A stretch of 64,000 nucleotides of DNA from Micromonospora profundi (lineage in GTDB: Bacteria; Actinomycetota; Actinomycetes; Mycobacteriales; Micromonosporaceae). Made by a program: the position numbers and the translations under genes. The notes below the pieces were generated by a model that was not told the origin of the DNA, searched no databases, and saw only the letters and a program-made list of their open reading frames with translations. Below are positions 19,750 through 35,410 of the stretch, piece by piece; the stretch's first letter is position 1, and each line of letters begins with the position of its first letter. The stretch spans positions 1,798,001 through 1,862,000 of the forward strand of contig NZ_JAATJK010000001.1 in assembly GCF_011927785.1 (NCBI RefSeq), given 5' to 3'.

Positions 19750-21411
19750 ATGAAGCGAATCAACACACCCCGCCGATGGGGGCGGGCAGCGGCGGCCGCG
19801 CTGCTGCTCGCCGCCGTCCTGGTCGGCATCCGCGTCCCGATGGCCCAGGCGCTGGAGAACGGCGTGGCCCGGACCCCACCGATGGGCTGGAACAGCTGGA
19901 ACTCGTTCGGCTGCAACATCAACGAGGCGCTGATCCGGCAGACGGCCGACGCCATCGTCAGCAGCGGGATGCGCGACCTCGGCTACGAGTACGTAGTGGT
20001 GGACGACTGCTGGTTCAACCCCAATCGCGACAGCTCCGGCAACATCCAGGGCGACCCGACGCGCTTCCCCAGCGGGATGAAGGCGCTCGGTGACTACCTG
20101 CATGCCCGTGGCCTGAAGTTCGGCCTCTACCAGGTGCCTGTCGACAAGACCTGCGCCCAGTACTTCGGCGCCTACCCGGGAGCGACGGGCAGCCGGGGCC
20201 ACGAGGTCCAGGACGCCCGGCAGTTCGCCGCCTGGGGCGTCGACTTCCTCAAGTACGACTGGTGCTCGCCGAACGGCAGCATCGACGAGCAGGTGGCCAC
20301 GTTCGCGAAGATGCGCGACGCGCTGGCCGCGACCGGCCGGCCGATCGTCTACAGCATCAACCCCAACAGCATCCACGCCAAGACCGGTCCGCTGCGCGAC
20401 TGGAGCGACGTGTCAAACATGTGGCGGACCACCGAGGACATCACCAACGCGTGGGACACCGGCCAGACCAACGGTTACCCGATGGGGATCCAGAACATCA
20501 TCAACGTGAACGTTCCCCTGGCCCGGTACGCCCGGCCCGGCGGGTTCACCGACCCGGACATGATGGAGGTCGGCCGGGGCGGCATGAACGACACCGAGAT
20601 GCGCAGCCACTTCGCGATGTGGGCGGTCATGGCGTCGCCGCTGATCGCCGGCAACGACGTCCGCTCCATGTCGTCGGCGACCCTGACCATCCTGACCAAC
20701 CGCAACCTGATCGCCATCAACCAGGACTCGCTCGCCCTGCAGGCCACGCAGGTCTCGTTCGACGGCACCCGTCGGGTGCTCGCCAAGCCGCTGGCAAACG
20801 GTGATGTGGCGGTCGCCCTCTTCAACCAGGGCGGCTCGACGACGACGATTTCCACGACGGCTGCCGCCATTGGCAAGTCCGGCAGCTCCTTCACGCTCGT
20901 GGACGCCTGGAGCAACTCGACAAGCAGCAGCACCGGCACCATCTCCGCGAGCGTCCCGGCCCACGGCACCGTTGTGTACCGGGTCAGTGGCGGTGGCACC
21001 ACAACTCCGCCGCCCACGACTCCGCCGCCGACGACGTCGAGCGCGTTCGCCAGCGCCGCCTCGGGTCGGTGCCTGGACGTCCCGAACAGCAACACCGCGA
21101 ACGGCACCCAGCCGGTGATCTGGGACTGCAACGGTGCGGCCAATCAACGCTGGACGGCGAACGGCCAGACCCTGCAGTCGCTCGGCAAGTGCCTGGACGC
21201 GCCGCTGAACGCCACGGCGGGCGCGAAGGTCCAGATCTGGGACTGCAACGGCGGCGCCAACCAGCGCTGGACCGTCAACGCCAACGGCACGATCAGCGGC
21301 GCTCAGTCGGGCCTGTGCCTCGACGTGAACAACAACGCAACCGCCAACGGCACCCCGGTGATCCTCTGGTCGTGCACGGGGGCGGCCAACCAGCGCTGGA
21401 CCCAGCGCTAG
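19750..21411 (+). CDS. Secreted alpha-galactosidase, GH27, with ricin-type CBM13
   Basis: A 553-residue exported glycosidase. Signal peptide 1-34 (cleavage near VPMAQA), then the GH27 barrel beginning ARTPPMGWNSWNSFGC. The nucleophile is D170 in FLKYDWCS and the acid/base D230 in MWRTTEDI; substrate-binding VVDDCWF is intact. A beta-sandwich follows (about 310-410), then a PPPTT linker near 415-432 and a ricin domain (433-553) with three QRW repeats. It releases terminal alpha-galactose (possibly beta-L-arabinopyranose, a known GH27 variant) from plant glycans. It has its own promoter region with LacI-type sites and a terminator. Confidence 0.92.
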   Translation: MKRINTPRRWGRAAAAALLLAAVLVGIRVPMAQALENGVARTPPMGWNSWNSFGCNINEALIRQTADAIVSSGMRDLGYEYVVVDDCWFNPNRDSSGNIQGDPTRFPSGMKALGDYLHARGLKFGLYQVPVDKTCAQYFGAYPGATGSRGHEVQDARQFAAWGVDFLKYDWCSPNGSIDEQVATFAKMRDALAATGRPIVYSINPNSIHAKTGPLRDWSDVSNMWRTTEDITNAWDTGQTNGYPMGIQNIINVNVPLARYARPGGFTDPDMMEVGRGGMNDTEMRSHFAMWAVMASPLIAGNDVRSMSSATLTILTNRNLIAINQDSLALQATQVSFDGTRRVLAKPLANGDVAVALFNQGGSTTTISTTAAAIGKSGSSFTLVDAWSNSTSSSTGTISASVPAHGTVVYRVSGGGTTTPPPTTPPPTTSSAFASAASGRCLDVPNSNTANGTQPVIWDCNGAANQRWTANGQTLQSLGKCLDAPLNATAGAKVQIWDCNGGANQRWTVNANGTISGAQSGLCLDVNNNATANGTPVILWSCTGAANQRWTQR

Positions 21412-21620: not shown

Positions 21621-22574
21621 TCAGCCCGTCGCTGCCGCTCCCACCGGGTCCCCGATCAGTCCGGTCGACGCGCGGTAGCGCACCGGAACAGGGTCGGTGA
21701 TCTCACCGACGAACGTCCCGTCGACGTGGTCGAGGAACCCGATGAGCGACCACGTGCCAGCGGGTCCGGGCACCAGGCGGGGCGCGTACAGGTGTGGGTG
21801 CGCGAACGGCTGGGCGGACGCGACGTCCCACGGGCCGCTGACGCTCGCGCCGGGGACCACCCAGATCCGGTGGTCGTCGCTGCGGGCGCTGGAGGTGGCG
21901 TCGGTGGAGAAGAGCAGCAGGGGCTGCCCGTCCACGACCGCGACCTGGGGGACCTCCAGGTGGCCGAACCCGGCCGGAGCCGACAGTGGTGGCTGGACCG
22001 TCCAGGTGACCAGGTCGGGGGAGGTAGCGTGACCGACGACTCCCCGGGCGTCTGCCGCCCCGGTGTTGGCGCGTGCCGTGATGAGCATGTGCCAGCCCTC
22101 GCCGTCGGGATCGGGGAACACCCACGGGTCGCGCCACGCCTGCTCGTACCAGAGGTCCCGGTCGAGCAGTTCGTACCAGGTCGGATGGGCCTGCACGATC
22201 GGGTCGGTGCCGTGCCGGTGCCAGGTGGTCAGGTCGTCGGAGACGGCAAGGCCGATGCGCTGGACGAGGCCGTTCTCAGCACGACTCACGCCGGTGTAGT
22301 ACAGATACCACCGCCCGTCCGGGCCGCGGACCGTGCACCCGGTCCACGTCGCCAGGTCGTCCCACGCGGGGGCGTCGGCGGGCACCACGGCGTCGGCGAC
22401 GAGGCGCCAGGAGCGCAGGTCCGTCGAAACGGCGTGGCCGATCGTGGCGCGGTGGTGGCGGCGGTGCGGGTCGTGCAGGGCGCGGGACGCGCGCAGGAAG
22501 AACATGTGCCAGAGGCCGGTGTCGTCCTGCGCGTACCAGCTGTCCCACACCCAGTGGTCGGCTAGACGAAGCAT
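21621..22574 (-). CDS. Five-bladed beta-propeller glycosidase, GH32/GH68-like
   Basis: A 317-residue protein without signal peptide, so probably cytoplasmic. Blade 1 carries D11 in HWVWDSWY, the RDP motif is at 148-150 (QAWRDPWVFPD) and a candidate acid is E207 (GHLEVPQVA). Nucleophile Asp, RDP and Glu in that order are the hallmark of GH32/GH68 fructan-active enzymes; GH43 shares the fold but not RDP. It therefore may hydrolyse a fructoside or related oligosaccharide. A CTAAA-TTTAG operator lies 17 bp upstream of the ATG, matching the sites of the adjacent LacI repressor. The ribosome-binding site is weak. Confidence 0.75.
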   Translation of the reverse strand: MLRLADHWVWDSWYAQDDTGLWHMFFLRASRALHDPHRRHHRATIGHAVSTDLRSWRLVADAVVPADAPAWDDLATWTGCTVRGPDGRWYLYYTGVSRAENGLVQRIGLAVSDDLTTWHRHGTDPIVQAHPTWYELLDRDLWYEQAWRDPWVFPDPDGEGWHMLITARANTGAADARGVVGHATSPDLVTWTVQPPLSAPAGFGHLEVPQVAVVDGQPLLLFSTDATSSARSDDHRIWVVPGASVSGPWDVASAQPFAHPHLYAPRLVPGPAGTWSLIGFLDHVDGTFVGEITDPVPVRYRASTGLIGDPVGAAATG

Positions 22575-22590
22575 GGCCGGAAACCTAGCA

Positions 22591-22604
22591 CTAAACCGTT
22601 TTAG
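22591..22604. promoter_or_regulatory. LacI-type operator upstream of GH32/68-like gene
   Basis: CTAAACCGTTTTAG, a pseudo-palindrome with central CG, lies 17-30 bp upstream of the minus-strand start at 22574 and just beyond the 3' end of the repressor gene. It is one of three similar sites in the window (others at 23837 and 32721). Confidence 0.75.
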
Positions 22605-22645
22605 CTGGAACAGCCCGTAACCCGACGTGACGGCCGTGGCGGGAG

Positions 22646-23671
22646 CTACCCGGCGGGAGGCGCGAGCGACTTGCGGCGACGCAGGGGCATCGGGACCAGC
22701 GTCGGCTCGGCGGCCCCGCCGTCAAGCAGCAGCTCGACCGCGCGTCGCCCCATCTGCTCGTGGGGCAGTGCGGTGGTGGCGAGGCCGGGGCGCAGCCAGG
22801 CAGCGATCGGGTCGTCGTCGAACGAGATCACCGACATGTCGTCGGGAACGGTAAGCCCTGCCTCGCCGAGCGCCTGGTACGCGCCGAACGCCAGCCGGTC
22901 GTTCATGCAGATCACCGCGCTGGGTCGCTGCTGCCTGTTGAGGAGCCCGCGCATGGCGGCGTAGCCGTGCTCGGGCAGCCAGTCGGTGCAGAAGCACTCG
23001 GCCAGCAGCGTGACGCCAGCGTCGCCGAGCGCCTGGTGGATGCCGCGCAGACGCGCCCGGGCCGCGAGGGACACCTCGGGGTCGCCCTCCTTGAGCCGGT
23101 TGCGCCCGATGAGTGCGATCGCGTCGCGGTGCCCGTGCTCCAGCAGGGCGGTGGCCACGGCGTGGCCAGCCCGCTCGTCGTCGGGAAGCACGCTCGGCAG
23201 GGTGTCGGAGCTTGTGGCGTTGAGCAGCACCACCGGCCCGCCGAGGATGGCCTGCGGCACCGTGAGTCGTCGGGTCGCCATCGCTGCGTAGATCACCCCG
23301 TCGACCTGCCGGTCGAGCATGGCCTCGATGGCGTACTGCTCGAATGTGGCGTCGCCCTGCGTCTCGGTGATGAGCAGTACGTGGTCCCGCTCCCGGGCGG
23401 CGTCCAGGGCGCCGCGGATGAGGCCACCGGCGAAGCGGGTGGTGGCGACGATGTCGGAGACGAAGGCGATGGTGGCCGTCTTGCGGGTGCGCAGGCTGCG
23501 CGCGGCGAGGTTGGGCCGGTAGCCGAGTTCCTCGGCGGCGGCGAACACCCGCTGGTGTGCCTCGGCCGACAGCCGGGTGCCCTCCCGGCCGTTGAGCACC
23601 ATCGACGCGGCGGTCTTGGACAGCCCTGCTCGCCGCGCGACGTCGGCCAGGGTTGCTCTGTTGCGGCCCAT
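22646..23671 (-). CDS. LacI-family transcriptional repressor
   Basis: A 341-residue regulator: helix-turn-helix and hinge at residues 6-60 (TLADVARRAGLSKTAASMVLNG), then a periplasmic-binding-like effector domain (IAFVSDIVATTRFAGGLI, VICMNDRLAFGAYQALGEAG, SVISFDDDPIAAWLRPGLAT). Start ATG 23671 has GGAGGA. It presumably binds the CTAAA-TTTAG sites at 22591, 23837 and 32721 and releases them when its sugar appears, controlling the flanking GH32/68-like gene, the CUT1 operon and a distant secreted esterase. Site 23837 is 166 bp upstream of its own start, so autoregulation is possible. Confidence 0.92.
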   Translation of the reverse strand: MGRNRATLADVARRAGLSKTAASMVLNGREGTRLSAEAHQRVFAAAEELGYRPNLAARSLRTRKTATIAFVSDIVATTRFAGGLIRGALDAARERDHVLLITETQGDATFEQYAIEAMLDRQVDGVIYAAMATRRLTVPQAILGGPVVLLNATSSDTLPSVLPDDERAGHAVATALLEHGHRDAIALIGRNRLKEGDPEVSLAARARLRGIHQALGDAGVTLLAECFCTDWLPEHGYAAMRGLLNRQQRPSAVICMNDRLAFGAYQALGEAGLTVPDDMSVISFDDDPIAAWLRPGLATTALPHEQMGRRAVELLLDGGAAEPTLVPMPLRRRKSLAPPAG

Positions 23672-23804
23672 CAGTCCTCCGAATCAGGCGCGGCGCCACG
23701 GACACCGCTCCCGCCCATCATGATGCGTCGTCGTCCGAGGGCCAGCCCCGGTTCCGCCCGCAGTGGTGTGAACTCGACGTTTCCAGACCGTTGCAGGGTG
23801 GTCC

Positions 23805-23852
23805 TTGACAGCTTCTCGCCTCACGCGCATGCTCTGCTAAATCAGTTTAGCG
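23805..23852 (+). promoter_or_regulatory. Promoter and LacI operator of the CUT1/esterase operon
   Basis: TTGACA (23805-23810), 17 bp, then CATGCT (23828-23833) as a possible -10, followed at once by operator GCTAAATCAGTTTAGC (23836-23851). The 25 bp from 23828 to 23852 occur exactly, in reverse, at 32720-32744 upstream of the secreted esterase, with a similar -35 at matching distance. A repressor here would cover the transcription start. Confidence 0.8.
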
Positions 23853-24030
23853 ACCACCTTTTGCGTGCTCTGGTCGCCGCGCTGAGGGTCATTGGTGACG
23901 GTACGCGTGCTGCTGCGGTGCGACCGGTCGCGACGTGCGCGTCGTGTCGGTGCTCCGGCTGTGGCGGTCCCGGTGGAGCCGTCCCGCAGCCATGGTCGCG
24001 GGACGCGCGGAGGAATCAAGGAGTCATAAA

Positions 24031-25386
24031 ATGGCAGTATTGCTGACAAATTTGTCGCGACGTCGAGCGCTGCTCCTCGCGCCGCTGCTGGCCGTCGGGC
24101 TGGCCGCGACGGCCTGTAGCGCGCCGGGCACCGACCGGTCGTCGAACGCAGAGCCCGACGCCGCCGTCAAGACGGAACTGGGCGCCGACCCGATCACCCT
24201 GGAGATGTACGCGGAGACCGGCTTCCCGCTGGCCAAGGCACTCGCCGACGAGTTCTCCAAGCAGCACCCGAACGTCACGTTCAACATCCGCGAGGACCAG
24301 TTCACTGTGATCGTGGAGAACGCGCCGCGGGTGATGGCCTCGGACAACTCGCCCGACATCATCCGGCTGCCCACGATGGTCGACCTGGTGAAGGACAACC
24401 TGCTCAAGAACCTGGACCCCTACTTCACCGCGTACGGCTGGGACAAGTTCCCGGCATCGCAGCTGATGCAGTTGCGCGTCGGGGAGAACATCCGGGGCAA
24501 CGGGTCGCTGTACGGGATGGGGCTGGGTTACAGCGTCACCGGCGTGTTCTACAACAAGAAGCTGGCCCAGCAGGTCGGCATGACCCAACCGCCGGCCACC
24601 GTTGCCGAGTTCGAGGAGCTGCTGGCCAAGGCGAAGGCCGGCGGCGTTCAGCCGATCATGCAGTTCAACAAGAACACCGCGGGTATCAACTTCCCGCACC
24701 AGGCGCTGCAGAACCAGTTCGGCGACCCGACGCAGGTCGCTGACTGGATCTTCCAGAAGCCGGGGGCCACCTTCGACACCCCGGCCGCGCTGAAGGCCAC
24801 CCAGACCATCCAGAAGTGGGCCCAGGCCGGCTACTTCCCGAAGGACGCCAACGCCGTGGACTACGCGGCGATGGTGGGGGAGTTCCAGAAGGGCAACGGC
24901 CTGTTCATGTTCAACGGTGACTGGGAGTCGGCCAACCTGGACAAGGCGATGCCGGGCAACGTCGGCTTCTTCCTGTTCCCCGCCGAATCCGCAGGTGGCA
25001 AGCACGTGGCGATGTCCGCCCCGAACACCTTCGGCGTCTCCGCAAAGGCCAAGAACGCTGACGCCGCCGCGTACTTCCTGAACTGGGCCCACACCAACGC
25101 CAAGGCCCGCGAGATCGCGGTGACGGTCGGCGGTTCCAGCCCCGGCGGCCCGAGCGACCTGCCGGTGCCGGCCGCCGCCCCGAACACCGTCCTGGCCGAG
25201 ACGCTCAAGGCGTCCCAGCAGCTCGGTGCCGAGAACGGCGCTGTCGACTTCACCGCGAACGCGACGGGCGGCATCTTCGCCGCCGCGATCACCCCCGAGA
25301 TGCAGAAGCTGATCGCCGGCCAGCAGACGCCCGAGGGGTACGTGAAGGCGGTCCAGGCCGAGTACGAGAAGGAACTGTCCCGATGA
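24031..25386 (+). CDS. CUT1 sugar-binding lipoprotein
   Basis: A 451-residue extracytoplasmic binding protein. ATG 24031 follows AAGGAG; the upstream open frame is not used. The signal contains RRR and ends in a lipobox with C29 (LAATAC). The mature part has the CUT1 pattern: ITLEMYAETGFPLAKALADEFSKQHPNVTF, YGMGLGYSVTGVFYNKKLAQQVG, NGLFMFNGDWESANLDKA and a late helix block with MSAPNTFGVSAKAKNADAAAYFLNW. It heads an operon of binding protein, two permeases and an esterase, with a LacI operator upstream. No ATPase is included, implying a shared MsiK-type ATPase. Confidence 0.92.
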   Translation: MAVLLTNLSRRRALLLAPLLAVGLAATACSAPGTDRSSNAEPDAAVKTELGADPITLEMYAETGFPLAKALADEFSKQHPNVTFNIREDQFTVIVENAPRVMASDNSPDIIRLPTMVDLVKDNLLKNLDPYFTAYGWDKFPASQLMQLRVGENIRGNGSLYGMGLGYSVTGVFYNKKLAQQVGMTQPPATVAEFEELLAKAKAGGVQPIMQFNKNTAGINFPHQALQNQFGDPTQVADWIFQKPGATFDTPAALKATQTIQKWAQAGYFPKDANAVDYAAMVGEFQKGNGLFMFNGDWESANLDKAMPGNVGFFLFPAESAGGKHVAMSAPNTFGVSAKAKNADAAAYFLNWAHTNAKAREIAVTVGGSSPGGPSDLPVPAAAPNTVLAETLKASQQLGAENGAVDFTANATGGIFAAAITPEMQKLIAGQQTPEGYVKAVQAEYEKELSR

Positions 25387-26354
25387 CGTCTGCCCTCGGC
25401 AGCGCACCAACCGGGCGGGACGACACGGTGTCGTCGCCGGATCGTCCCGCCCACCCCTCGTCCACGCGGGCCCACCGACGTCGGTGGGCCCGCGCGGCCG
25501 GGACTGGCTGGTTGTACGTCCTGCCCGCCCTGGTGATGTACGCGATATTCGTCCTCCGCCCCCTCGCCCTGACCGTCCAGTACTCGCTGTACGAGTGGAA
25601 CGGGATCGGCGTGGCCCGCTGGGCGGGTCTGGACAACTACCTCACGGTGTTCACCGACAGCGACCTGCTGAAGATCATCGGTAACGCGATCATCCTGATC
25701 GTCTTCTTCAGTTTCATTCCGGTGGCGCTCGGGCTGCTGGTGGCGAGCGTGGTTCGCCGGATCACCACCGGAGCGTTCGGGACCGTGGTCCGGACGATCC
25801 TCTTCCTGCCACAGGTCATCCCACTCGTGGCGGCAGGCATCGCGTGGAGCTGGCTTCTGTCGTCGAACGGCCTGATCAACCAGGTGCTGCGCGCGGTCGG
25901 TCTGGGCGGCCTCGCCCGCGCCTGGCTCGGTGACTTCGACACGGCGCTGCCGGCCGTGGGCGTGATCGGCGCCTGGGTCCTGCTCGGTCTCTGCACCATC
26001 CTGCTTGTGACCGGCATGAGCAAGATCGATCCTGCGCTCTACGAGGCAGCCCGCCTCGACGGCGCCGGGCCGGTACGGGAGTTCCTCGCGGTGACCCTGC
26101 CCAGCCTGCGGCAGGAGATCGGCGTCTGCCTCACCGTGACGATCATCGCCGCGCTCGCCAGCTTCGACATCGTCTACATCTCCACAAGCGGTGGCCCCGG
26201 CCTGCAAACCACGGTTCCCGGTCTGGAGATCTACCGCCTCGCCTTCTCGCAGCGTCAGGTCGGGTTGGCCTCGGCGCTGGCGGTCGTGCTGATGGTGCTG
26301 GTGCTGGCCTTCGTGCTGCCGATCCAGCGACTGACCCGGGGGGAGAAGCCGTGA
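25383..26354 (+). CDS. CUT1 sugar ABC transporter permease, MalF type
   Basis: A 323-residue permease. A hydrophilic N-terminus of about 40 residues (Arg/Ser/His-rich) precedes six membrane spans from WLYVLPALVMYAIFVL. The EAA loop is YEAARLDGAGPVREFLAVTLPSL. The start ATG overlaps the binding-protein stop by 4 bp (ATGA) and the end overlaps the next GTG, so stoichiometric coupled translation is likely. Ordinary length. Confidence 0.91.
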   Translation: MTSALGSAPTGRDDTVSSPDRPAHPSSTRAHRRRWARAAGTGWLYVLPALVMYAIFVLRPLALTVQYSLYEWNGIGVARWAGLDNYLTVFTDSDLLKIIGNAIILIVFFSFIPVALGLLVASVVRRITTGAFGTVVRTILFLPQVIPLVAAGIAWSWLLSSNGLINQVLRAVGLGGLARAWLGDFDTALPAVGVIGAWVLLGLCTILLVTGMSKIDPALYEAARLDGAGPVREFLAVTLPSLRQEIGVCLTVTIIAALASFDIVYISTSGGPGLQTTVPGLEIYRLAFSQRQVGLASALAVVLMVLVLAFVLPIQRLTRGEKP

Positions 26355-27175
26355 ACCTGAGCCGACGTGAACAACTGACAGGCCGGCTGTTCCTGATCGC
26401 CCTTGTCCTGGTCACCCTGCTGCCGTTCGTGAGCATGCTGTCGGCGGCGTTGCAGCCGCGCGGCACCGTGCCCAGCGGCCTGGCATGGCCGTCGGACCCG
26501 CAGTGGGGCAACTTCGCCGACGCCTTCACCGCCGCCAACATGGGCGCTCTGCTGCGCTCCAGCCTGCTCATCGTGGCCGGTGTCGTGCCGGTGTCGGTGC
26601 TCATCGCCACCATGGCCGGGTTCGGGCTCGGCCAGCTGCGGGTGCCCGGCGGCCGGTTCGTCTTCGGGCTGTTCCTGCTCGGTCTGACACTGCCCTTCGA
26701 GGCCGTGGTCACCCCGCTCTACTACCAGATGCAGGACCTCGGTCTGCTCAACACCCGGTGGGCGATCATCCTGCCGCTGATCGGCCTGTACATGCCGTTC
26801 GCCGTGTTCTGGATGCGCGCGCACTTCACGAACGTGCCTGTCGAGTTGTCCGAGGCGGCGAAGGTGGACGGCGCCAGCACGTGGCAGCTGTTCTGGCGGG
26901 TCCAGGTGCCGCTCGCCCGGCCGGCAATCGCCTCGCTGACGATCCTGATGTTCCTCTGGACGTGGAACCAGTTCCTGCTCGCCATCGTCCTCGTCGACGA
27001 CGCCACGAAACGCACGATGGCCGGGGCTCTGGGTGCGTTCCAGGGCCAGTGGGGCACCGACCTGGTGCTGCTGTGCGCTGGCTCGCTGCTCATCCTCACC
27101 CCTACCCTCATCGTGTTCCTGATCTTCCAGCGACAGTTCATCAAGGCCCTGATCCAGGGCTCAGTGAAGGGATAG
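26351..27175 (+). CDS. CUT1 sugar ABC transporter permease, MalG type
   Basis: A 274-residue permease starting at GTG 26351 (GTGA overlap). It has six spans and the EAA loop ELSEAAKVDGASTWQLFWRVQVPLARPAI. It pairs with the preceding MalF-type protein. The following esterase gene begins 3 bp after its stop, with AAGGGA as ribosome-binding site inside this gene's end, placing the esterase in the same transcript. Confidence 0.91.
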   Translation: MNLSRREQLTGRLFLIALVLVTLLPFVSMLSAALQPRGTVPSGLAWPSDPQWGNFADAFTAANMGALLRSSLLIVAGVVPVSVLIATMAGFGLGQLRVPGGRFVFGLFLLGLTLPFEAVVTPLYYQMQDLGLLNTRWAIILPLIGLYMPFAVFWMRAHFTNVPVELSEAAKVDGASTWQLFWRVQVPLARPAIASLTILMFLWTWNQFLLAIVLVDDATKRTMAGALGAFQGQWGTDLVLLCAGSLLILTPTLIVFLIFQRQFIKALIQGSVKG

Positions 27176-27178
27176 GCA

Positions 27179-28333
27179 GTGGCCACGCAGCCGCAGATCC
27201 ACGGCGACGCCGACGACGGCTACGGGCGCGTCGCCGACGTCTTCCGCGACAACTTCGCCTCCCGGGGCGAGGTGGGCGCCGCGGTCACGCTCTACGTGCG
27301 GGGACGCAAGGTCGTCGACCTGTACGGCGGGCTGGCCGACACCCGCACCGGGCGGCAGTGGGAGGCGGACACACCCGTCGTCGTGTTCTCCTGCACCAAG
27401 GGGATCCTGGCGATCTGCGCCTACCTCCTGGCGCAGCAGGGGCGGCTGGACCTCGACGCGCCCGTGACGCGCTACTGGCCGGAGTTCGGCCAGCACGGCA
27501 AGGACCACGTTCCGGTGCGCTGGCTGCTCACCCACCAGGTCGGGCTGCCGGCCCTGGACCGTGCGCTGACCCTCGACGAGATCCTCGCGTGGGATCCGGT
27601 CATCAAGGCGATCGAGGCGCAGGCCCCGCTGTGGCAGCCCGGCACGGCACACAGCTACCACGCGATGACGTACGGCTGGCTCGTCGGCGAGGTGATCCAC
27701 CGCGTCACGGGGCAACTGCCCGGCGCGTTCTTCCGCGACGCCGTCGCCGAGCCGCTGGCGCTGCGTACCTGGCTGGGGCTTCCCGCGTCCGAACGCGACA
27801 CCGTCGCCCGGAACCTGGCCCCACCGCCGGAGGCCGATCCGTTCGTCGACCCCGTGGCCGAGCGCGGCATCACAATGGGCGGTGCCTTCGCCTTTCCCGC
27901 CGACGCCGACGGCCTGGTCAGCTTCAACGACCCCGCCATCCAGGCCGCCGGAATTCCGGGGGCGGGCGCGGTGAGCACCGCCGAGGGCCTCGCTCGCCTC
28001 TACGCGGCCTGCGTGTCCGACATCAGGGGCGGGCCGCTGCTGAGTGCCGCGTCCGTGGACGACGCGGTCGTCGTCCGCTCTCGCGGCCAGCAGCGGCACG
28101 GCCCACCGGACACCGGTCAGCGGTGGGGGACCGGCTTCCTGCTGGACTCGCCGCCGGCCCGGCCGCTGCTCGGCGCGAGCAGCTTCGGTCACGACGGCGC
28201 CGGTGGGAACCTCGCCTTCGGCGACGCGCGGCACGCTGTGGGTTTTGGCTACGTGGTCAACCAGATGTACGGGGCGGGCGACGAGCGCGCCAACCGGCTG
28301 ACCGCCGCCGTCCGCTCCTGCCTTCCGGCCTGA
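27179..28333 (+). CDS. Serine hydrolase of the beta-lactamase class C / family VIII esterase type
   Basis: A 384-residue cytoplasmic protein with no signal peptide. The nucleophile motif SxxK is SCTKG near residue 72, and the second motif is the Tyr in SYHAMTYGWLVGEV, the form seen in family VIII carboxylesterases (EstB-like) rather than the YxN of beta-lactamases. FGHDGAGGNLAFGD occupies the third-motif region. As last gene of a sugar-import operon it probably removes acyl groups from the imported oligosaccharide. GTG start at 27179. A role in peptide or beta-lactam hydrolysis is less likely from context. Confidence 0.85.
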   Translation: MATQPQIHGDADDGYGRVADVFRDNFASRGEVGAAVTLYVRGRKVVDLYGGLADTRTGRQWEADTPVVVFSCTKGILAICAYLLAQQGRLDLDAPVTRYWPEFGQHGKDHVPVRWLLTHQVGLPALDRALTLDEILAWDPVIKAIEAQAPLWQPGTAHSYHAMTYGWLVGEVIHRVTGQLPGAFFRDAVAEPLALRTWLGLPASERDTVARNLAPPPEADPFVDPVAERGITMGGAFAFPADADGLVSFNDPAIQAAGIPGAGAVSTAEGLARLYAACVSDIRGGPLLSAASVDDAVVVRSRGQQRHGPPDTGQRWGTGFLLDSPPARPLLGASSFGHDGAGGNLAFGDARHAVGFGYVVNQMYGAGDERANRLTAAVRSCLPA

Positions 28334-28356
28334 CCCGATCCGCGCGTCGACACGAC

Positions 28357-28394
28357 GCCACCGGCCCCGCCCTGGGGTGGGCGGGGCCGGTGGC
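28357..28394. terminator. Bidirectional terminator, 16-bp perfect stem
   Basis: Bases 28357-28372 pair perfectly with 28379-28394 around the loop TGGGGT. It sits between the convergent esterase operon and the SGNH gene. Confidence 0.8.
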
Positions 28395-28408
28395 GGACGT
28401 GCGTGCGG

Positions 28409-29293
28409 TCAGCTGTTCAGCGTGGCCAGCAGCGCGGTGGCCATGCCCTGCTCGCCTCGGGCGTTCGGATGGAACGGGGCGGCCGCGTTCTGCGGCACGA
28501 GACCTTCGACCCAGCGGGTGCCGCTGCCCTTGCACGCGTCCCGGCCGATCGACGGGGTGTAGACGTCGGAGTAGGTGGCGCCGTTCGCGGCGGCCGTGCG
28601 GGCCAGCATGGAGTTGAGTGACTTCTCGATGGTCCGCAGGTACGGCACGTCCTGGTAGGCGACCGGTACGACGGGCCAGCAGCCGTAGCCGCTGTCCGGC
28701 ACGATCGCCGGGTAGCCGAGCACCACGACCCGCGCGCCGGGAGCGGCCCGGCGGGCCGCCTGGAGCACAGCCGTCACCTTCGGCGCCGTGGCGGCGATCC
28801 TGGCCTGGAGCTGGTCGGTGCCCCCGGCCGTGTAGCGGTCCCGGCACGGCGAACCGAGTGGACTGCTGAGGCTCGCCTGCGCGCAGTCGCCGATGATGCC
28901 GGCGAAGCCGATGTCGTTGCCGCCGATCTGCACTGTCACCAGGGCGGTGTTCGAGGTGACAGCGTTGATCTGCGGTGGGGTCGCGATGCCCAGTTGGCCG
29001 CTGCCGCCGTAGAGGATGTCGTCGGTGGTGGCGCCGGAGCAGCTCACGTCCACGAACGACGACGAGCCCGCGGAGGCGGCGACAAGCGACGGATAGTTGC
29101 GGCTGGACCGCAGGCAGTTCAGGTCGACCTGGGTGGGGACCAGCGGGCCGGAGGTGTACGAGTCGCCGAGCGCGACGTAGCGGCCGGTGGGTACGGCGGC
29201 GGCGGCGGGTGCGGCGGCGGCGAGCAGCACGCCGGCGGTCGCTGCGGCGAGTGCGGTCAGCCGGAGGGCTGCCCGCAGGAGGGGACGGTTCAT
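28409..29293 (-). CDS. Secreted SGNH-hydrolase esterase/lipase
   Basis: A 294-residue exported protein. ATG 29293 preceded by GGGAGG is chosen over a frame 50 codons longer, because a clean signal peptide (LTALAAATAGVLLAAAAPAAAA) begins there. Block I GDSYTSG holds the nucleophile S45, GGNDIG is block III and the catalytic Asp/His equivalent is in PFHPNARGEQGM near the C-terminus. Six cysteines suggest three disulfides, as in Streptomyces lipase/esterase of this fold. It probably de-esterifies lipids or acylated glycans outside the cell. Divergent from the GH43 gene. Confidence 0.9.
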   Translation of the reverse strand: MNRPLLRAALRLTALAAATAGVLLAAAAPAAAAVPTGRYVALGDSYTSGPLVPTQVDLNCLRSSRNYPSLVAASAGSSSFVDVSCSGATTDDILYGGSGQLGIATPPQINAVTSNTALVTVQIGGNDIGFAGIIGDCAQASLSSPLGSPCRDRYTAGGTDQLQARIAATAPKVTAVLQAARRAAPGARVVVLGYPAIVPDSGYGCWPVVPVAYQDVPYLRTIEKSLNSMLARTAAANGATYSDVYTPSIGRDACKGSGTRWVEGLVPQNAAAPFHPNARGEQGMATALLATLNS

Positions 29294-29584
29294 GGCGCCT
29301 CCCAGAGGCATCGCGGTGGTGGTGCCAAGATCCTCACCCGGTGACGCCGTCACCAATATAGACATTCGTCCATAAAGATTGGCAGCTATGGCTCTGGCGC
29401 GATGGCGCGCGGGTGTTGCGGGGACACTTCGGGCATGTGTCATCGGTCCCCTTGACAGCCGATGTGAGCGATAACACGATGGCCTTCACGTTCGCGATCC
29501 CGGCTGGGCAGAACGCGCCCACGGCGCGGCTGTTCGGCGAGACCCCGTTGACGAACATCCCTCGACCGACCCGGAGCCGCACCT
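29294..29584. promoter_or_regulatory. Divergent promoter region SGNH esterase / GH43
   Basis: Contains the palindrome GGTGACGCCGTCACC at 29340-29354, then an A+T-rich stretch bounded by CCAAT (29353) and ATTGG, suitable for promoters. TTGACA at 29452-29457 on the plus strand is a candidate -35 for the GH43 gene. None of the CTAAA-TTTAG sites is present, so these two genes are not obviously in the LacI regulon. Confidence 0.45.
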
Positions 29585-31171
29585 ATGGACTTCACACTGG
29601 ATGACGTGGCGGTGGCGGGTGCCGCGCTTCCACCACCCCGATCGAAGACGATCGAGGTCGTCGGCAAACTGCCGGGCGAGCACAACCCGTTGATCGGGCA
29701 CAAGTTCGGCGCCGACGGCTTCGGCTTCGTGCACGACGGCCGGGTGTACCTGTACCTGACCAACGACACCCAGGGCTACGCCCCGGATCCAGTCACCGGT
29801 GTCTCGCCGGCAATCAACTACGGCGACATCAACCAGATCACGGTGATCTCCTCGGAGGATCTCGTGAACTGGACGGACCACGGCGAGATCCAGGTCGCGG
29901 GCCCGGACGGGGTGGCACGCTTCACCGCCAACTCGTGGGCGCCCGGCATCGCCAGGAAGGTGGTCGACGGCGAGGAGAGGTTCTTCCTCTACTACGCCAA
30001 CAGTGGCGACTCCACCAACGTGATCACGGGTAGCACCCCGCTCGGCCCGTGGACCAGCGAGCGCACGAGCACGTTGATCAACGACAGCACACCCGGTGCC
30101 GAGGACGTCGCGTGGAAGTTCGACCCGACGCCCTTCGTGGACGACGACGCCCGGCCCTACCTCTACTTCGGCGGCGGTCCCGCTTCGACGGGCATGCCGC
30201 CGGCCGAACGCTTCAACAACCCGAAGAACCTCCGGGTCATCGCACTCGGCGACGACATGGTCTCCACCGAAGGGGCGGCCACGGTGGTCGACGCCCCCGT
30301 CGCCTTCGAGGCGGGCCACGTGTTCACGCGCGGGGGCAGGTACTACTTCACGTACTCGTCGCACTTCGGCGGGAGCGACTTCGGTGGCAGCCAGCAGCCG
30401 ATTCCCGGCTACCCCGATGCCGGCCAGATCGGCTACCTGATCTCCGACGACCCGATGTCGTGGCCGAAGGAGACCTACGCCGGCGTCCTCTTCCCCAACC
30501 AGTCCCAGTTCTTCGGCGCCGGCACCGGTGGCAACAACCACCAGTCGGTGTTCGAGTTCGAGGGGCGGTACTACTTCACCTACCACGCCCCGACGCTGAA
30601 CAAGCGCATCAACGGCGACACCACCCAGGGCTACCGCAGCCCGCACATCCAGGAGTTGACCTTCCGCCCGGACGGCACCATCGAGCAGGTCGTCGGCACG
30701 TACGCCGGGGTGGAGCAGGTTCGCCACTTCGACCCGTACCGCGTCTTCGAGGCCGAGACCTTCGGTTGGAGCAAGGGTGTCGCGACCTCGAAGGCCGACC
30801 GCCCCTCCGCGCAGTTCGACGCCGCGGCACCGAACCTGGTGGTCAGTGACATCCACGACGGCGACTGGACGGCGCTGTCGTCAGTGGACTTCGGCGACGA
30901 CGGTGCACGCGGCGTCACGGCCACGGTGCGGGCCCTCGCCACGGGCGCCCGGATCCAGGTCAGGCTGGATGGTGTCGACGGTCCGGTGGTCGGTACGATC
31001 GCGGTCGACAGCCCGGCCGGTCAGTGGGCCGAGGTACGCGCGGAGTTGACGGGCGTCAGCGGCGTGCACCACGTCTACTTCACCTTCAGCGGTCCGGCCG
31101 GCGTCGAACTCTTCGAGATCGACTCCTGGGCTTTCGAGGCGGCCACCGCGCCGAGCCCGAGCTGCCGGTGA
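29585..31171 (+). CDS. GH43 glycosidase with C-terminal CBM6
   Basis: A 528-residue protein without signal peptide. The first 380 residues form a GH43 propeller: PGEHNPLIGHKFGADGFGFVHDGRVYLYLTND, NWTDHGEI, NSWAPGIARKVVDGEERFFLYYAN and FEAGHVFTRGGRYYFTYS give the blade pattern with catalytic acidic residues. The remainder is a CBM6 (YRVFEAETFGWSKGV, DGDWTALSSVDFGDDGARGVTATV). Such proteins are arabinofuranosidases or xylosidases acting on arabinoxylan. A CBM on an apparently unsecreted enzyme is odd; it may be exported by another route or act on long oligosaccharides. GGAG lies about 12 bp before the ATG. Confidence 0.88.
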   Translation: MDFTLDDVAVAGAALPPPRSKTIEVVGKLPGEHNPLIGHKFGADGFGFVHDGRVYLYLTNDTQGYAPDPVTGVSPAINYGDINQITVISSEDLVNWTDHGEIQVAGPDGVARFTANSWAPGIARKVVDGEERFFLYYANSGDSTNVITGSTPLGPWTSERTSTLINDSTPGAEDVAWKFDPTPFVDDDARPYLYFGGGPASTGMPPAERFNNPKNLRVIALGDDMVSTEGAATVVDAPVAFEAGHVFTRGGRYYFTYSSHFGGSDFGGSQQPIPGYPDAGQIGYLISDDPMSWPKETYAGVLFPNQSQFFGAGTGGNNHQSVFEFEGRYYFTYHAPTLNKRINGDTTQGYRSPHIQELTFRPDGTIEQVVGTYAGVEQVRHFDPYRVFEAETFGWSKGVATSKADRPSAQFDAAAPNLVVSDIHDGDWTALSSVDFGDDGARGVTATVRALATGARIQVRLDGVDGPVVGTIAVDSPAGQWAEVRAELTGVSGVHHVYFTFSGPAGVELFEIDSWAFEAATAPSPSCR

Positions 31172-31261
31172 CGATCAGCGCGCAGGCGCCGTGACTCGCG
31201 CCCGAGCCCATCCGAGCCACCGACCGTTGTACGCACGACGCAAGCCGATCGCGACGACAGG

Positions 31262-31291
31262 GGCTCCCCGGACGACGTCGCCCGGGGAGCC
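31262..31291. terminator. Terminator between GH43 and secreted esterase genes
   Basis: GGCTCCCCGG (31262-31271) pairs with CCGGGGAGCC (31282-31291) around a 10-base loop, between convergent genes. Confidence 0.65.
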
Positions 31292-31311
31292 GCACATCGC
31301 CTGTCGGGGTG

Positions 31312-32652
31312 TCAGCCGCCAGCCCCGGCCGGCTTGGTCTGGCCGAGCAGCCAGCGCAGGATGCTGCTGTCCTCGTAGGTCGGCCCGAACGCCGCGTGGT
31401 AGTCCGGCAACGAGAACGCCGAGTCGGCGTACTCGGTGTAGCGGACAAGGTTCGCGGCCTGCTCCGGGCTCTTGCCCCGGGCCTGGTACGCCTGCCGCAG
31501 CAGCGTGGAGGAGTTCCGCGCGCCCGTGACGTTGAGCAGGTGGTCGTGCTCACCGTGGGTGATCCAGACCGGCACCTCGCCCGCCGCGATCGCGTTTGCC
31601 TGCGTGGCGTTGACGGGGAACCCGCCGGTCACCAACCCGCCCGCGAACAGGCCCGGACGCTTGGCGAACGCCTCCCACAGCAGTTGGGAGCCGTACGAGA
31701 CGGTGGTCGCGTACACCCGGCGGGTGTCCACGGGGAACTGACGGACGAACTGGTCGAGCAGCTTCACCAGCAGGTCGGCCTCGGCGGCCCCGCCGACCCG
31801 CTGATGCTGCGGCGCCAGGACGATCACGTCCTCGGAACTGCCGGTCCAGCTGGACTGCAACCACGCCGTCGCCGGGATGTCGGCGGCGAGCTGGACGCCG
31901 AGGTTGTCGCCGTCCCAGCCCATGCCGTGCCCGGGCAGGACGACCATCAGCGGGTACGTGCGGCCGGGCTGGTAGTTCTTCGGCAGGTGGTAGTGGTACG
32001 GCAGCACCATTCCACCGCTGAGGAACGAGCCGTAGGTGAACTCGTCGACAAGCTTGTTGACCGGCTTCTCGGTGACCGGGCGGGACTCGCGCGGTGTGGC
32101 CCTGGCGAGCACCGGCCCCTTGCCGGCGCCCTTACCGGGCTGCGCGTGCACGTCCTTGCGCTGCACGACGCGGGTGGGCAGCTCGGGATTGACCTTCACT
32201 GTGCACAGGAAGGTGGGGCACTTGGAGACGATGACCGTCCAGCCGCCGGTGTCGGCGGGGTCCAGCTCCACGATGACGTACCGGCCGGGTGCCGACTGCT
32301 GGTCCGTCCGGGTGTTCGGCGCGTCGTTCGTGTAGGTGTGGGTGATGGTCCGGTCGGCGAGCTTCGGCAGGTCCTCGATCGGGTTGAAGCGGAAGTTGTA
32401 GGTGGTGTCGGCGACCGTGAAGGTGGCGTTGTCGAGGGTGCGGGGGTTGACCGTCGCGCCGTACTCGATGGCCACGGCGGAGACCTTCTGGCCGTACGTG
32501 TAGACCGTGGTGATGGGGGTGATGCTGCGGATCCCGTCTCCGCTGCCGTGGGCCGGGCCGGTGCCACCGCCGGTGGCGGCGTAGGCGGTGCCGGAGGCGA
32601 CGGTCAGGACGAGGGCGGCGAGAAGTGGGACCAGTCCTCTTCGCAGTCTCAT
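31312..32652 (-). CDS. Secreted alpha/beta-hydrolase esterase with N-terminal Ig-like domain
   Basis: A 446-residue exported protein. ATG 32652 has AAAGGA 7 bp upstream. Signal peptide to about 32 (VASGTAYA); an Ig-like domain about 40-165 (SITPITTVYTYGQKVSAVAIEYG); hydrolase domain about 205-440 with PLMVVLPGHGMGWDG (oxyanion region), nucleophile Ser in YATTVSYGSQLLWEAF and a candidate His in LPDYHAAFGP. The arrangement resembles Ig-like/CE1-type esterases such as Thermotoga EstA. Its promoter carries a LacI operator identical to that of the CUT1 operon at 24 kb, so it probably strips acyl groups from a polymer whose fragments that transporter imports. Exact substrate unknown. Confidence 0.82.
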   Translation of the reverse strand: MRLRRGLVPLLAALVLTVASGTAYAATGGGTGPAHGSGDGIRSITPITTVYTYGQKVSAVAIEYGATVNPRTLDNATFTVADTTYNFRFNPIEDLPKLADRTITHTYTNDAPNTRTDQQSAPGRYVIVELDPADTGGWTVIVSKCPTFLCTVKVNPELPTRVVQRKDVHAQPGKGAGKGPVLARATPRESRPVTEKPVNKLVDEFTYGSFLSGGMVLPYHYHLPKNYQPGRTYPLMVVLPGHGMGWDGDNLGVQLAADIPATAWLQSSWTGSSEDVIVLAPQHQRVGGAAEADLLVKLLDQFVRQFPVDTRRVYATTVSYGSQLLWEAFAKRPGLFAGGLVTGGFPVNATQANAIAAGEVPVWITHGEHDHLLNVTGARNSSTLLRQAYQARGKSPEQAANLVRYTEYADSAFSLPDYHAAFGPTYEDSSILRWLLGQTKPAGAGG

Positions 32653-32719
32653 GCGAGTCCTTTCTCGAGCGGGCACCCGTCTCTGGCGTTCGACGCCGGG
32701 AGGGGGACGGGCGAGTGGC

Positions 32720-32768
32720 CGCTAAACTGATTTAGCAGAGCATGGTTGCCGCCCCGGTTAGTAGTCAA
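32720..32768 (-). promoter_or_regulatory. Promoter and LacI operator of the secreted esterase
   Basis: On the minus strand: TTGACT (32768-32763), 18 bp, CATGCT (32744-32739), then operator GCTAAATCAGTTTAGC (32736-32721). Bases 32720-32744 are the exact reverse complement of 23828-23852, so this looks like a copied or strongly conserved promoter-operator module. Confidence 0.8.
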
Positions 32769-33232: not shown

Positions 33233-33313
33233 TTGCTGACAGGTACTCGGTTCACCAGCGACGCCGTGCCCGTCGTCGGCGAGTCGGTCGGGAAAGGACG
33301 GTCCCGGCGATGA
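33233..33313 (+). CDS. Possible 26-residue leader peptide upstream of CUT2 permease
   Basis: A TTG codon at 33233 stands 5 bp after a perfect AGGAGG (33222-33227), far stronger than the site of the following gene, and opens a 26-codon frame whose TGA (33311-33313) overlaps the permease ATG as ATGA. The product begins LLTGTRFTSDAVPVVGE and has no known domain. It could couple translation into the operon or be chance. Confidence 0.3.
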   Translation: MLTGTRFTSDAVPVVGESVGKGRSRR

Positions 33314-34317
33314 GCGCCGTCGAGGCGACCCCGGCAGCGCGGGACGGCGTGTTCACCGACCGGCTCCGTGAGTGGGTCTCGCACGCCGTCGCCGAGTTCA
33401 CCGCCGCCACCGCGCTCGTCGTCCTGTTCATCGCGCTGAGCATCGCGAGCCCGTACTTCCTGACGGCGGACAACCTGTTCAACATCGGCGCGCAGACGGC
33501 GGTGATCGCCATCATCGCCGCCGCGCAGACGATGGTCATCATCACCGGGGGCATCGACCTGTCGGTCGGATCGGTCGCCGCCCTCGCCGGTGTGACAGGG
33601 GCGATTGTCGTCCGTGACCTGGGTTTCCCGCTCCTCGCGGCGACAGCCGTCGCGATCGGCGTCGGCGCGCTGGCCGGGCTCGTCAACGGGCTGCTGGTGA
33701 CAGTGGCCCGGATTCCCCCGTTCATCGCGACTCTGGGGACGATGTCCGCCGGTCGCGGCCTGGTCTTCATCATCACCGGAGCCGTCGGAGTGTACGGACT
33801 GCCCCGGTCCTTCCAACTGCTCGGCAACGGTGAGATCGTCGGCATCCCGTTCGCCGTGGTGATCACCGCCGTGGTCGCCGTGGGGGTCGCGTTCCTGCTG
33901 TCACAGACCCGCTTCGGCCAGTACACGTACGCGATGGGCTCCAACCTGGAGGCGGCCCGCCGCTCGGGCATCCGCGTGGGTCGCCACCTGACCGGCGTCT
34001 ACGTCCTGGCGGGCGTCCTGGTCGGGCTGGGCGGCATGATCGCCGCCTCCCGGGTCAACTCCGGCCAGCCGAACTACGGCATCTCGCTGGAACTCGACGT
34101 CATCGCCGCCGCTGTCATCGGCGGCGCCAGCCTCTTCGGTGGCCAGGGCCGGATCGTCGGGACCATCATCGGCGCCTTCCTCATCGCGCTGGTCCGCAAC
34201 GGCGCCGTCCTGCTCGACATCAGCATTCACTACCAGCAGGTGATCGTCGGCGTGATCATCTGGGCCGCCGTCTACTTCGACCAGTACCGCCGCCGGCGGC
34301 TGGAGTCCCGGGGCTGA
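33310..34317 (+). CDS. CUT2 sugar ABC transporter permease, RbsC family
   Basis: A 335-residue BPD_transp_2 permease with a 30-residue cytoplasmic N-terminus and about nine spans. Family patterns: AAAQTMVIITGGIDLSVGSVAALAG, NGLLVTVARIPPFIATLGTM, GSNLEAARRSGIRVG and GGASLFGGQGRIVGTIIGAFL. A single permease is encoded, so the channel is probably a homodimer, in contrast to the 12.9-14.9 kb system. Gene order permease, binding protein, ATPase resembles fructose/arabinose (Frc-like) operons. AAAGGA lies 11 bp before the ATG. Confidence 0.92.
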   Translation: MSAVEATPAARDGVFTDRLREWVSHAVAEFTAATALVVLFIALSIASPYFLTADNLFNIGAQTAVIAIIAAAQTMVIITGGIDLSVGSVAALAGVTGAIVVRDLGFPLLAATAVAIGVGALAGLVNGLLVTVARIPPFIATLGTMSAGRGLVFIITGAVGVYGLPRSFQLLGNGEIVGIPFAVVITAVVAVGVAFLLSQTRFGQYTYAMGSNLEAARRSGIRVGRHLTGVYVLAGVLVGLGGMIAASRVNSGQPNYGISLELDVIAAAVIGGASLFGGQGRIVGTIIGAFLIALVRNGAVLLDISIHYQQVIVGVIIWAAVYFDQYRRRRLESRG

Positions 34318-34357
34318 CCCGCCGTTCCCGCAGTCCGACAGAGGAAGGACGCACACC

Positions 34358-35410
34358 ATGGCACACACCACCACCAGCCGGCGGACCCGAGGACGGCGCC
34401 TGCGCGCGCCGGGCCTGCTCGCCGCCGCCGCTGTCGTCGCCCTGCTCGGCGCCTGCGGCGGGGTCGAGGTCCGCGACGGCGGCGACGGCGGGTCGACCGA
34501 CGCCAGCGGTCCGTTGAAGCTCGCCGTCGTGCCCAAGGCCGTCGGCGCCGACTACTGGAACACTGTGAAGGCCGGCGCCGAGTGTGCCGCCCAGCGCGCC
34601 GGTGACGTCACAGTGCAGTGGGACGGCGTGACGACCGAGACGGACGTCGAGGGCCAGGTCAACCTGATCCAGAACTTCGTCACCAGGAAGGTCGACGGCA
34701 TCGTCTACGCGGCCACCGACTCGCGGGCGCTGGCACCGGCCACCGAGCAGGCGCTGGGCGCCGACATCCCGGTCGCGATGATCGACTCCGGCACCAGCCC
34801 ACAACCCTCGACGGTGCCGCTGTTCGCCACTGACAACCGCGCCGCGGCCGGCGAGGCGGCGAAGTTGCTCGCGACCGAGCTGGGCCCCGGCAACCACGAG
34901 GTGGCACTCGTCGAGTTCCAGCCGGGCTCGCAGACGAACACCGAGCGGGTCGAGGGCTTCAAGAGCGGCCTGGCCGCATATCCCAACCTGAAGCTCGTCG
35001 GGCAGCAGCCCAGCCGCAGCGACGTCAACGAGGCACGTCGGGTGACCGAGAACATCCTGACCGCCAACCCGAACCTCGCCGGGGTCTTCGCGGCCAACGA
35101 GCAGAGCGTGCTCGGCGCCGCCCAGGCCATCCAGGCGGCGAACAAGTCCGGCAAGGTCGTCATCATCGGCTGGGACGCCGCGCCCGACGAGATCGCCGGG
35201 CTGCGCAGCGGTCAGATCTCCGCGCTCGTCGTGCAGAACCCGTTCAAGATGGGCTACTTCGGCGTCGACAAGATGGTCAAGCACCTGCGCGACAAGACGC
35301 CGTTGGCGTCGGCGGACACCGGCGTCACGTTCGTCACCAAGGCCAACATCGACTCGGCCGAGATCAAGGCAGTGCTCGAACCAAGCTGCGCCAACCCGCC
35401 GGTGCAGTGA
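34358..35410 (+). CDS. CUT2 sugar-binding lipoprotein
   Basis: A 350-residue lipoprotein with an Arg-rich n-region, lipobox LGAC (C33) and a type-1 periplasmic binding domain: LKLAVVPKAVGADYWNTVKAGAECAA, DGIVYAATDSRALAPATEQAL, VAMIDSGTSPQPSTVPLFATDN and VVIIGWDAAPDEIAGLRSGQ. This is the ribose/fructose/allose-binding class. GGAAGGA precedes the ATG. The TGA overlaps the ATPase start. Proximity to fucD and shared promoter words suggest L-fucose or a similar sugar as ligand (inference). Confidence 0.92.
   Translation: MAHTTTSRRTRGRRLRAPGLLAAAAVVALLGACGGVEVRDGGDGGSTDASGPLKLAVVPKAVGADYWNTVKAGAECAAQRAGDVTVQWDGVTTETDVEGQVNLIQNFVTRKVDGIVYAATDSRALAPATEQALGADIPVAMIDSGTSPQPSTVPLFATDNRAAAGEAAKLLATELGPGNHEVALVEFQPGSQTNTERVEGFKSGLAAYPNLKLVGQQPSRSDVNEARRVTENILTANPNLAGVFAANEQSVLGAAQAIQAANKSGKVVIIGWDAAPDEIAGLRSGQISALVVQNPFKMGYFGVDKMVKHLRDKTPLASADTGVTFVTKANIDSAEIKAVLEPSCANPPVQ

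Follow-up and report, generated by a model that had tools for sequence, protein, structure and literature searches.

The stretch of DNA analysed here (the window; 64,000 nucleotides, G000:C1:1798001-1862000 of a 6.93-Mb genome), from Micromonospora profundi, a bacterium of soil and plants, contains a gene for a LacI-family repressor. Close to it lie a gene for an intracellular enzyme related to glycoside hydrolase (GH) families GH32 and GH68, and a divergent set of genes for a CUT1 transporter and a cytoplasmic esterase; a gene for a secreted esterase with an immunoglobulin-like (Ig-like) domain stands further off. Palindromic operators precede these genes, and in related genomes operator and repressor occur together. 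We consider it almost certain that they form a real LacI regulon, and put at about two in three the probability that its substrate is an ester-decorated (acylated) fructoside.

Genes and operators in the window

The repressor (341 amino acids; 22646..23671, minus strand) combines a Pfam LacI helix-turn-helix domain (45.8 bits, cut-off 27) with a Peripla_BP_3 domain (101 bits, cut-off 26.5). Against the model TIGR02417 (fruct_sucro_rep) it scores 123.1 bits, below the curated cut-off of 389.55.

The pattern CTAAA-N4-TTTAG occurs at 22591-22604, 23837-23850 and 32722-32735, exactly in all three cases, in a window scan that allowed up to two mismatches. Shuffled windows gave a mean of 0.76 such matches, and three were reached in 4 of 100 shuffles. 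The places agree within one base with the operators named in a preliminary description of the window. Operator 1 (ACTAAACCGTTTTAGC, 22590..22605) is 16 bp before the ATG of the GH32/68-like gene, operator 2 (GCTAAATCAGTTTAGC, 23836..23851) covers the point where transcription of the transporter operon is expected to begin, and operator 3 (32721..32736) reads GCTAAATCAGTTTAGC toward the Ig-like esterase; no strand is assigned to any of them. The predicted promoter of the transporter operon (23805..23833, plus strand) is TTGACA-17-CATGCT, with its elements at 23805-23810 and 23828-23833, and that of the Ig-like esterase (32739..32768, minus strand) is TTGACT-18-CATGCT, with elements at 32768-32763 and 32744-32739. 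Both show the arrangement TTGACA/T, 17-18 bp, CATGCT, CT and then the operator, the first part of which had been described before. Judged by the usual distance from the -10 element, transcription would start inside operators 2 and 3.

These two operators lie in a 25-bp block of identity, 23828-23852 being the reverse complement of 32720-32744. This is the sole pair of separate places in the window with an inverted 20-mer or longer, a hairpin at 25465-25494 being the other match; inverted 20-mers, hairpins included, are present in 11 of 40 Markov-1 random windows. The preliminary description had found the block and taken it for a copied promoter–operator module. The identity is there, but copying is not supported: the core from the -10 element to the operator is identical between the two promoters (24/24), whereas outside it they agree at about the level of chance (spacer 3/16, upstream 11/28, downstream 12/40), and in ten relatives too the flanks are no more alike than chance. 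In four loci (L051, L052, L072 and L111) even the core matches at just 16-18 of 24 positions, in a fixed register. The block is a conserved functional core of -10 element and operator, not a demonstrable copy. Nor is it a dispersed repeat, the refutation once envisaged, because the exact 16-mer GCTAAANNNNTTTAGC occurs in the whole genome only at 23836 and 32721 of the window. With one mismatch allowed, two more places appear: the site at 22590 and one that precedes the window by 90 kb (genome position 1,707,551). A limit of two mismatches brings in another eight (12 in all), which we attribute to chance because a reversed-pattern control finds more (28).

The GH32/68-like gene (21621..22574, minus strand) encodes a β-fructosidase-like enzyme of 317 amino acids with the clan GH-J fold, as judged by Pfam, an AlphaFold model (predicted local distance difference test score, pLDDT, 87) and PDB matches. 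It scores 55 bits against the Pfam GH32 N-terminal model and has the five-bladed GH32 N-terminal propeller, after which the protein ends: no C-terminal β-sandwich was matched (PF08244, E 0.001), and model residues 1-317 align with approximately the first 315-360 residues of GH32 chains of 430-540. The GH68 model PF02435 gives 19.4 bits, below its cut-off of 27, and a weak Pfam GH43 match exceeds its cut-off (44 bits versus 32). All 50 structural matches listed for the model are sucrose or fructan enzymes, and GH43 families were not seen among them, which is no proof against such kinship. The enzyme is about 20% identical to the GH32 endo-levanase BT1760 (6r3u) and the GH68 inulosucrase of Halalkalicoccus jeotgali (7bj4); unlike GH32 enzymes it has no C-terminal β-sandwich, and unlike GH68 enzymes it falls under the family cut-off. 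D11, R148-D149-P150 and E207 are invariant in 18 sequences and align with WD, RDPW and ERP of 7bj4. We take these residues to have the roles usual in clan GH-J, with D11 as nucleophile, the RDP Asp as transition-state residue and E207 as acid/base. By eye the enzyme has no signal peptide.

The genes on the other side of lacI encode a CUT1 solute-binding lipoprotein (24031..25386; Pfam SBP_bac_1, with a lipobox-like LAATAC read in the sequence), permeases A (25383..26354) and B (26351..27175; both Pfam BPD_transp_1) and, last, a cytoplasmic family VIII-type esterase with a β-lactamase fold (27179..28333; Pfam Beta-lactamase). All are on the plus strand, divergent from lacI, and they look like an operon because they overlap or almost touch. 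The AlphaFold model of the binding protein is poor (mean pLDDT 55), and sequence searches return mixed oligosaccharide binders and do not decide on a sugar. The five best PDB matches of the cytoplasmic esterase are esterases by name; S71xxK74 and Y160 are invariant in 7 sequences, which fits family VIII by sequence, and no signal peptide is seen by eye. A perfect inverted repeat of about 30 bases near the start of permease A (25465-25494, in the first codons) is possibly an mRNA hairpin.

The secreted esterase (31312..32676, minus strand) joins an N-terminal Ig-like domain (EstA_Ig_like, PF18435) to a hydrolase resembling polyhydroxybutyrate (PHB) depolymerases, and has a signal peptide by eye. 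Residues 49-447 match TmEstA (PDB 3doh; E 3e-26), with which it shares the two-domain layout. S327, D378 and H427, invariant in 10 sequences, are its probable catalytic residues, and a PF18435 domain with an α/β hydrolase and Ser-Asp-His behind it is the layout of EstA-type esterases. Unlike TmEstA (3doh/3doi, presumably from Thermotoga maritima), the enzyme is secreted and belongs to a LacI regulon.

Repressor and operator across related genomes

We searched 121 genomes, the source genome included, for the repressor: 43 match at E 1e-50, and in 31 of these the identity is at least 80%. The exact operator pattern GCTAAANNNNTTTAG is found in 29 of these 31 genomes and in none of 20 genomes of the same genus that gave no LacI match. 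The latter were drawn from 78 no-match genomes; the 12 genomes with more distant LacI matches were outside the scan. The reversed pattern, a control that differs from the true one in its dinucleotides, gave 2 matches in the 31 genomes, 4 in the 20 and 19 forward matches at one mismatch in 12 genomes. The 29 genomes hold 80 exact sites (51 at lacI, 24 at the Ig-like esterase, 2 at a CE1-like esterase, 2 at a 542-residue secreted hydrolase and 1 elsewhere), 79 of which are at most 400 bp from one of these four genes. At up to one mismatch, 12 genomes yield 38 places, all at lacI and the two esterases or at the 542-residue hydrolase of genome G003, so that regulon membership looks closed at this stringency. 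The preliminary description had proposed a single LacI regulon made up of the CUT1-esterase operon, the GH32/68-like gene and the Ig-like esterase, and had suggested scanning the genome and its relatives; the scan supports the proposal.

The lacI gene has relatives at 44 loci of the genome collection, or 43 without the distant L078 (27% identity). These 43 span Micromonospora (with Verrucosispora), Plantactinospora, Virgisporangium, a Micromonosporaceae metagenome-assembled genome and one Streptomyces (L076). TTGACA, CATGCT and GCTAAA-N4-TTTAGC precede the binding-protein gene in all 42 loci that have it (L076 does not); 41 of these operators are identical and that of L058 is off by one centre base. 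Where the GH32/68-like gene is present, an operator is 15-17 bp from its ATG in 40 of 41 loci, and the 14-mer is exact in 24, has one mismatch in 7 and two in 10. GCTAAA-N4-TTTAGC also stands before 24 of 24 full-length Ig-like esterases of LacI-positive genomes (71-100% identity), which are 4.8-33 kb from lacI in 20 genomes and on another contig in 4. Their promoters have TTGACA in 23 of 24 copies (TTGACT in the window being the exception), an ATGCTC element in 23 of 24 and a variable spacer. The gene is present in 26 of 31 LacI-positive genomes (counting G018, whose copy is a 59% paralog, and G054, where it is split) versus 1 of 90 others, counts that ignore phylogeny; in G020, which has no LacI match, it lacks an operator.

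The site at genome position 1,707,551 reveals a fourth target about 111 kb from lacI, and the target set first drawn up, right for the three promoters of the window, was incomplete without it. The site precedes a gene (1,707,837-1,709,717) for a CE1-like esterase of 627 amino acids, with a signal peptide by eye, an Esterase domain (PF00756) and a C-terminal Ig-like Big_3_5 match slightly under the cut-off. Its nearest solved relative is a xylanase Z domain (1jjf, E 3.5e-20), catalogued as endo-1,4-beta-xylanase Z, which we take to be a feruloyl esterase domain; the two have a CE1-like catalytic domain in common, but the enzyme here is not part of a xylanase. The gene is found in 22 of the 121 genomes, 20 of the 31 that are LacI-positive versus 2 of the 90 others (again irrespective of phylogeny). 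The operator precedes it in all 20 LacI-positive genomes and is absent in both LacI-less ones, where one copy is a fragment. Its promoter reads TTGACA, 17-18 bp, a CACACT-like element, 6-8 bp and the operator. In Virgisporangium ochraceum (L072) the transporter operon closes with the CE1-like gene where otherwise the cytoplasmic esterase stands, and the GH gene has the Ig-like esterase as its neighbour. A locus of G020 (L206:6049-9466, G020:C30), with no LacI match, has a CE1-like gene adjacent to a 57% Ig-like esterase and no operator. In the source genome a gene resembling MPAB/Lcp rubber oxygenases (PF09995; L134:5544-6767) lies upstream of the CE1-like gene.

The 542-residue secreted hydrolase with an operator is confined to G001 and G003 (2 of 121 genomes at E 1e-100, the source genome not among them). 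It is α/β-hydrolase-like with a weak Pfam match below the cut-off, has CG-centred operators in these two species (L116:3054, L128:3058) and is perhaps a third secreted esterase. The single unassigned site among the 80 is a lone GCTAAAATGGTTTAGT in G001 (L115:3002, G001:C410) beside another CUT1 binding-protein gene, which also has two palindromes of the type TGGGAGCGTTCCCA.

Of 394 genomes searched across the class (source genome included), 23 gave a match to the GH32-like family, 5 to the Ig-like esterase and 2 to the CE1-like esterase. A binding-protein homologue was recognizable in just 2 of 20 GH32-like loci read, those of G352 and G433, which belong to one genus of another family. G352 has LacI, transporter, GH32-like enzyme, PfkB kinase and both secreted esterases in one stretch, with three operator-like sites: the secreted esterases diverge around GCTAAGTCGATTTAGC, and a third such site lies at the transporter. 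Its cytoplasmic esterase, of the unrelated hormone-sensitive lipase (HSL) type, stands behind GCTAACCCGATTTAGC. G433 has LacI, transporter, GH32-like enzyme and a β-lactamase-type esterase, with GCTAAAACCTTTCAGC. In a third family (G227, G191 and G258), GCTAATCCGATTTAGC stands before the Ig-like esterase as well as before the transporter operon. The last operon gene of G227 and G258 encodes a true GH68 enzyme (L270 and L272; PF02435 180 bits, above cut-off), the contig of G191 stops just past the binding-protein gene, and G258 has GH32 and PfkB genes in addition. In these six loci (101 kb) all ten one-mismatch sites are at such promoters. At least three actinobacterial families retain the operator and most of the genes. 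The strongest sign that a fructosidase and a cytoplasmic esterase are both needed is that unrelated enzymes fill these two jobs.

Several genes around the locus have no operator in the window. A secreted GH27 α-galactosidase with a ricin-type lectin (19750-21411) adjoins the GH32/68-like gene and is kept at 86-88% in five relatives' loci (L036, L046, L049, L075 and L077). A secreted GDSL/SGNH hydrolase (28409-29443) lies between the transporter operon and a GH43-CBM6 gene (29585-31168); a search of the 44 relatives' loci (E 1e-20) did not detect it and, having no operator either, it is perhaps a local insertion. Membership of these three genes in the regulon is not supported. Beyond the Ig-like esterase, ribose-type ABC genes (permease, binding protein and ATPase in order; 33310-36228) adjoin a GntR-like regulator and an enolase-superfamily-like gene (36.3-38.4 kb), all named by eye; the region from 33310 to 38.4 kb seems to be an independent locus for a sugar or sugar acid.

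A predicted pathway and its alternatives

In the pathway that we propose, LacI on GCTAAAtcagTTTAGC over the transcription start would block initiation at four promoters, and the imported sugar or a derivative would release it. The secreted esterases would strip some acyl groups outside the cell, the CUT1 importer would bring in the sugar, perhaps still partly acylated, and the cytoplasmic esterase would remove the remaining acyl groups. The GH32/68-like enzyme would then free fructose inside the cell, to be phosphorylated by a fructokinase-like enzyme whose gene accompanies the system in several relatives. That the source genome has four such predicted promoters (CUT1-esterase operon, GH32/68-like gene, Ig-like esterase and CE1-like esterase) is well supported; the repression, the inducer, the enzyme activities, the sucrose core and the acyl groups are predicted from sequence.

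The genes, and the versions of the system in two other families, are consistent with the scheme of the preliminary description, in which esters are cleaved outside, the product is imported, and ester and glycoside are cleaved inside. That description left both sugar and acyl group open. The fold and the GH68 and PfkB partners now narrow the sugar to what is likely a β-fructoside, probably sucrose-based. A sucrose ester in particular has somewhat less than an even chance, and we suggest tentatively that the regulon is a bacterium's dedicated means of catabolizing plant sucrose esters, such as those with hydroxycinnamoyl and acetyl groups. Which acyl groups are cut is a guess; cinnamoyl and acetyl groups do occur together on plant sucrose esters (PMC6273327), which would explain two different secreted esterases.

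Several observations weigh against this interpretation. G041 and G055 are LacI-positive and have no operator, although their transporter and GH genes are lost or truncated: both loci (L136 and L135, respectively) keep LacI and the cytoplasmic esterase, and the GH gene, operators and transporter are gone except for a permease fragment in G041, an apparent decay of the locus. Two Ig-like esterases of LacI-positive genomes, the G018 paralog and the split G054 gene, are operator-less; the CE1-like site is off by one base in 18 of 20 genomes and exact in 2; and, because 10 of 41 GH operators carry two mismatches, a one-mismatch scan passes over real sites and could overlook weaker targets. As to the chemistry, the esterase families are assigned by domain, and such domains can do other chemistry. 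The Ig-like esterase has T-V-S-Y-G in place of GxSxG, its first Gly being Thr. The named solved relatives of the binding protein bind chitin, mannan or malto-oligosaccharides, not sucrose. The GH32-like family is also used outside this system, and of the 41 Micromonosporaceae-type loci with the GH gene just 6 have a PfkB kinase immediately after it.

The system could instead act on a plant polysaccharide with ester groups, such as arabinoxylan or fructan bearing feruloyl or acetyl residues, with the GH32/68-like enzyme trimming oligosaccharides imported from it. The kinship of the CE1-like esterase to the feruloyl esterase of xylanase Z, the GH43-CBM6 and GH27-lectin genes flanking the locus, and the resemblance of the binding protein to oligosaccharide binders all suit such a diet. 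However, a scan of 12 genomes at up to one mismatch showed no operator at any glycanase gene, the two flanking genes have no site and are missing from many relatives' loci (10-kb flanks), and both the intracellular enzyme and its GH68 replacement belong to fructoside families. We regard this explanation as unlikely.

Plain sucrose or a short fructo-oligosaccharide would account for the GH32/68 fold, for the GH68 and PfkB partners and for CUT1 transport, which suits sucrose, and at least 11 groups have LacI sucrose regulons according to PMC4052901. The esterases would then be co-controlled accessory scavengers. Yet ester cleavage looks essential, because the operator stands at 24 of 24 full-length Ig-like copies, the transporter operon includes a cytoplasmic esterase and, in G352, an esterase of an unrelated family stands in for it; the word 'esterase' does not occur in the main text of PMC4052901. 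A substrate free of esters is, on this evidence, an improbable one.

Enzymes with HSL and β-lactamase folds are promiscuous, and there are weak matches to PHB-depolymerase models, so the hydrolases might detoxify or recycle something else, such as a lactone, a polyhydroxyalkanoate-like polymer or an antibiotic, with the transporter as a bystander. That the hydrolases are linked time and again to a sugar importer and an enzyme of fructosidase fold, joined in some genomes by a PfkB kinase, and that the two esterases tested have no defence-family match, make this very unlikely. That the sites are a shared promoter motif or repeat, a notion prompted by the -10 element in the 25-bp block, has next to no probability, given that the pattern is absent from all 20 LacI-less genomes and from the two with decayed loci, that G006 changed both of its sites in the same way (to GCTAAATCATTTTAGC) and that the source genome has only two exact copies.

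Relation to known systems

The proposed acylated-fructoside regulon shares with the LacI sucrose and fructoside regulons (ScrR, CscR, SuxR and BfrR groups; PMC4052901) a local LacI repressor, palindromic operators, a transporter, a β-fructosidase-type hydrolase and, in some relatives, a fructokinase-like gene. It differs from them in the two secreted esterases and the cytoplasmic esterase of its set. Its LacI, moreover, is far below the fruct_sucro_rep cut-off and its targets are scattered along about 123 kb of the genome.

Many plants have sucrose esters as defence and surface compounds, and plants themselves metabolize acylsucroses with acylsugar esterases and an acyl-invertase. The logic of ester cleavage and fructosidase cleavage of acylated sucrose is common to both systems, but there the enzymes are those of a plant and here they would form a bacterial uptake and degradation regulon. 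Among the matches listed by a search of the open-access literature, with subscription papers outside its scope, we found no paper on this regulon or on a bacterial sucrose-ester pathway, and we know of no earlier regulated bacterial route for sucrose-ester degradation. Micromonospora is reported to be a normal occupant of nitrogen-fixing nodules (PMC4182475).

Whatever the sugar, the locus defines a compact and testable LacI regulon, with members in several families and four promoters with predicted sites in this genome. If our proposal is true, several unstudied esterases and a short GH32/68-type enzyme would gain a clear assay, and the regulon would be the first regulated bacterial route for sucrose esters that we know of and would give Micromonospora a concrete plant-derived diet.

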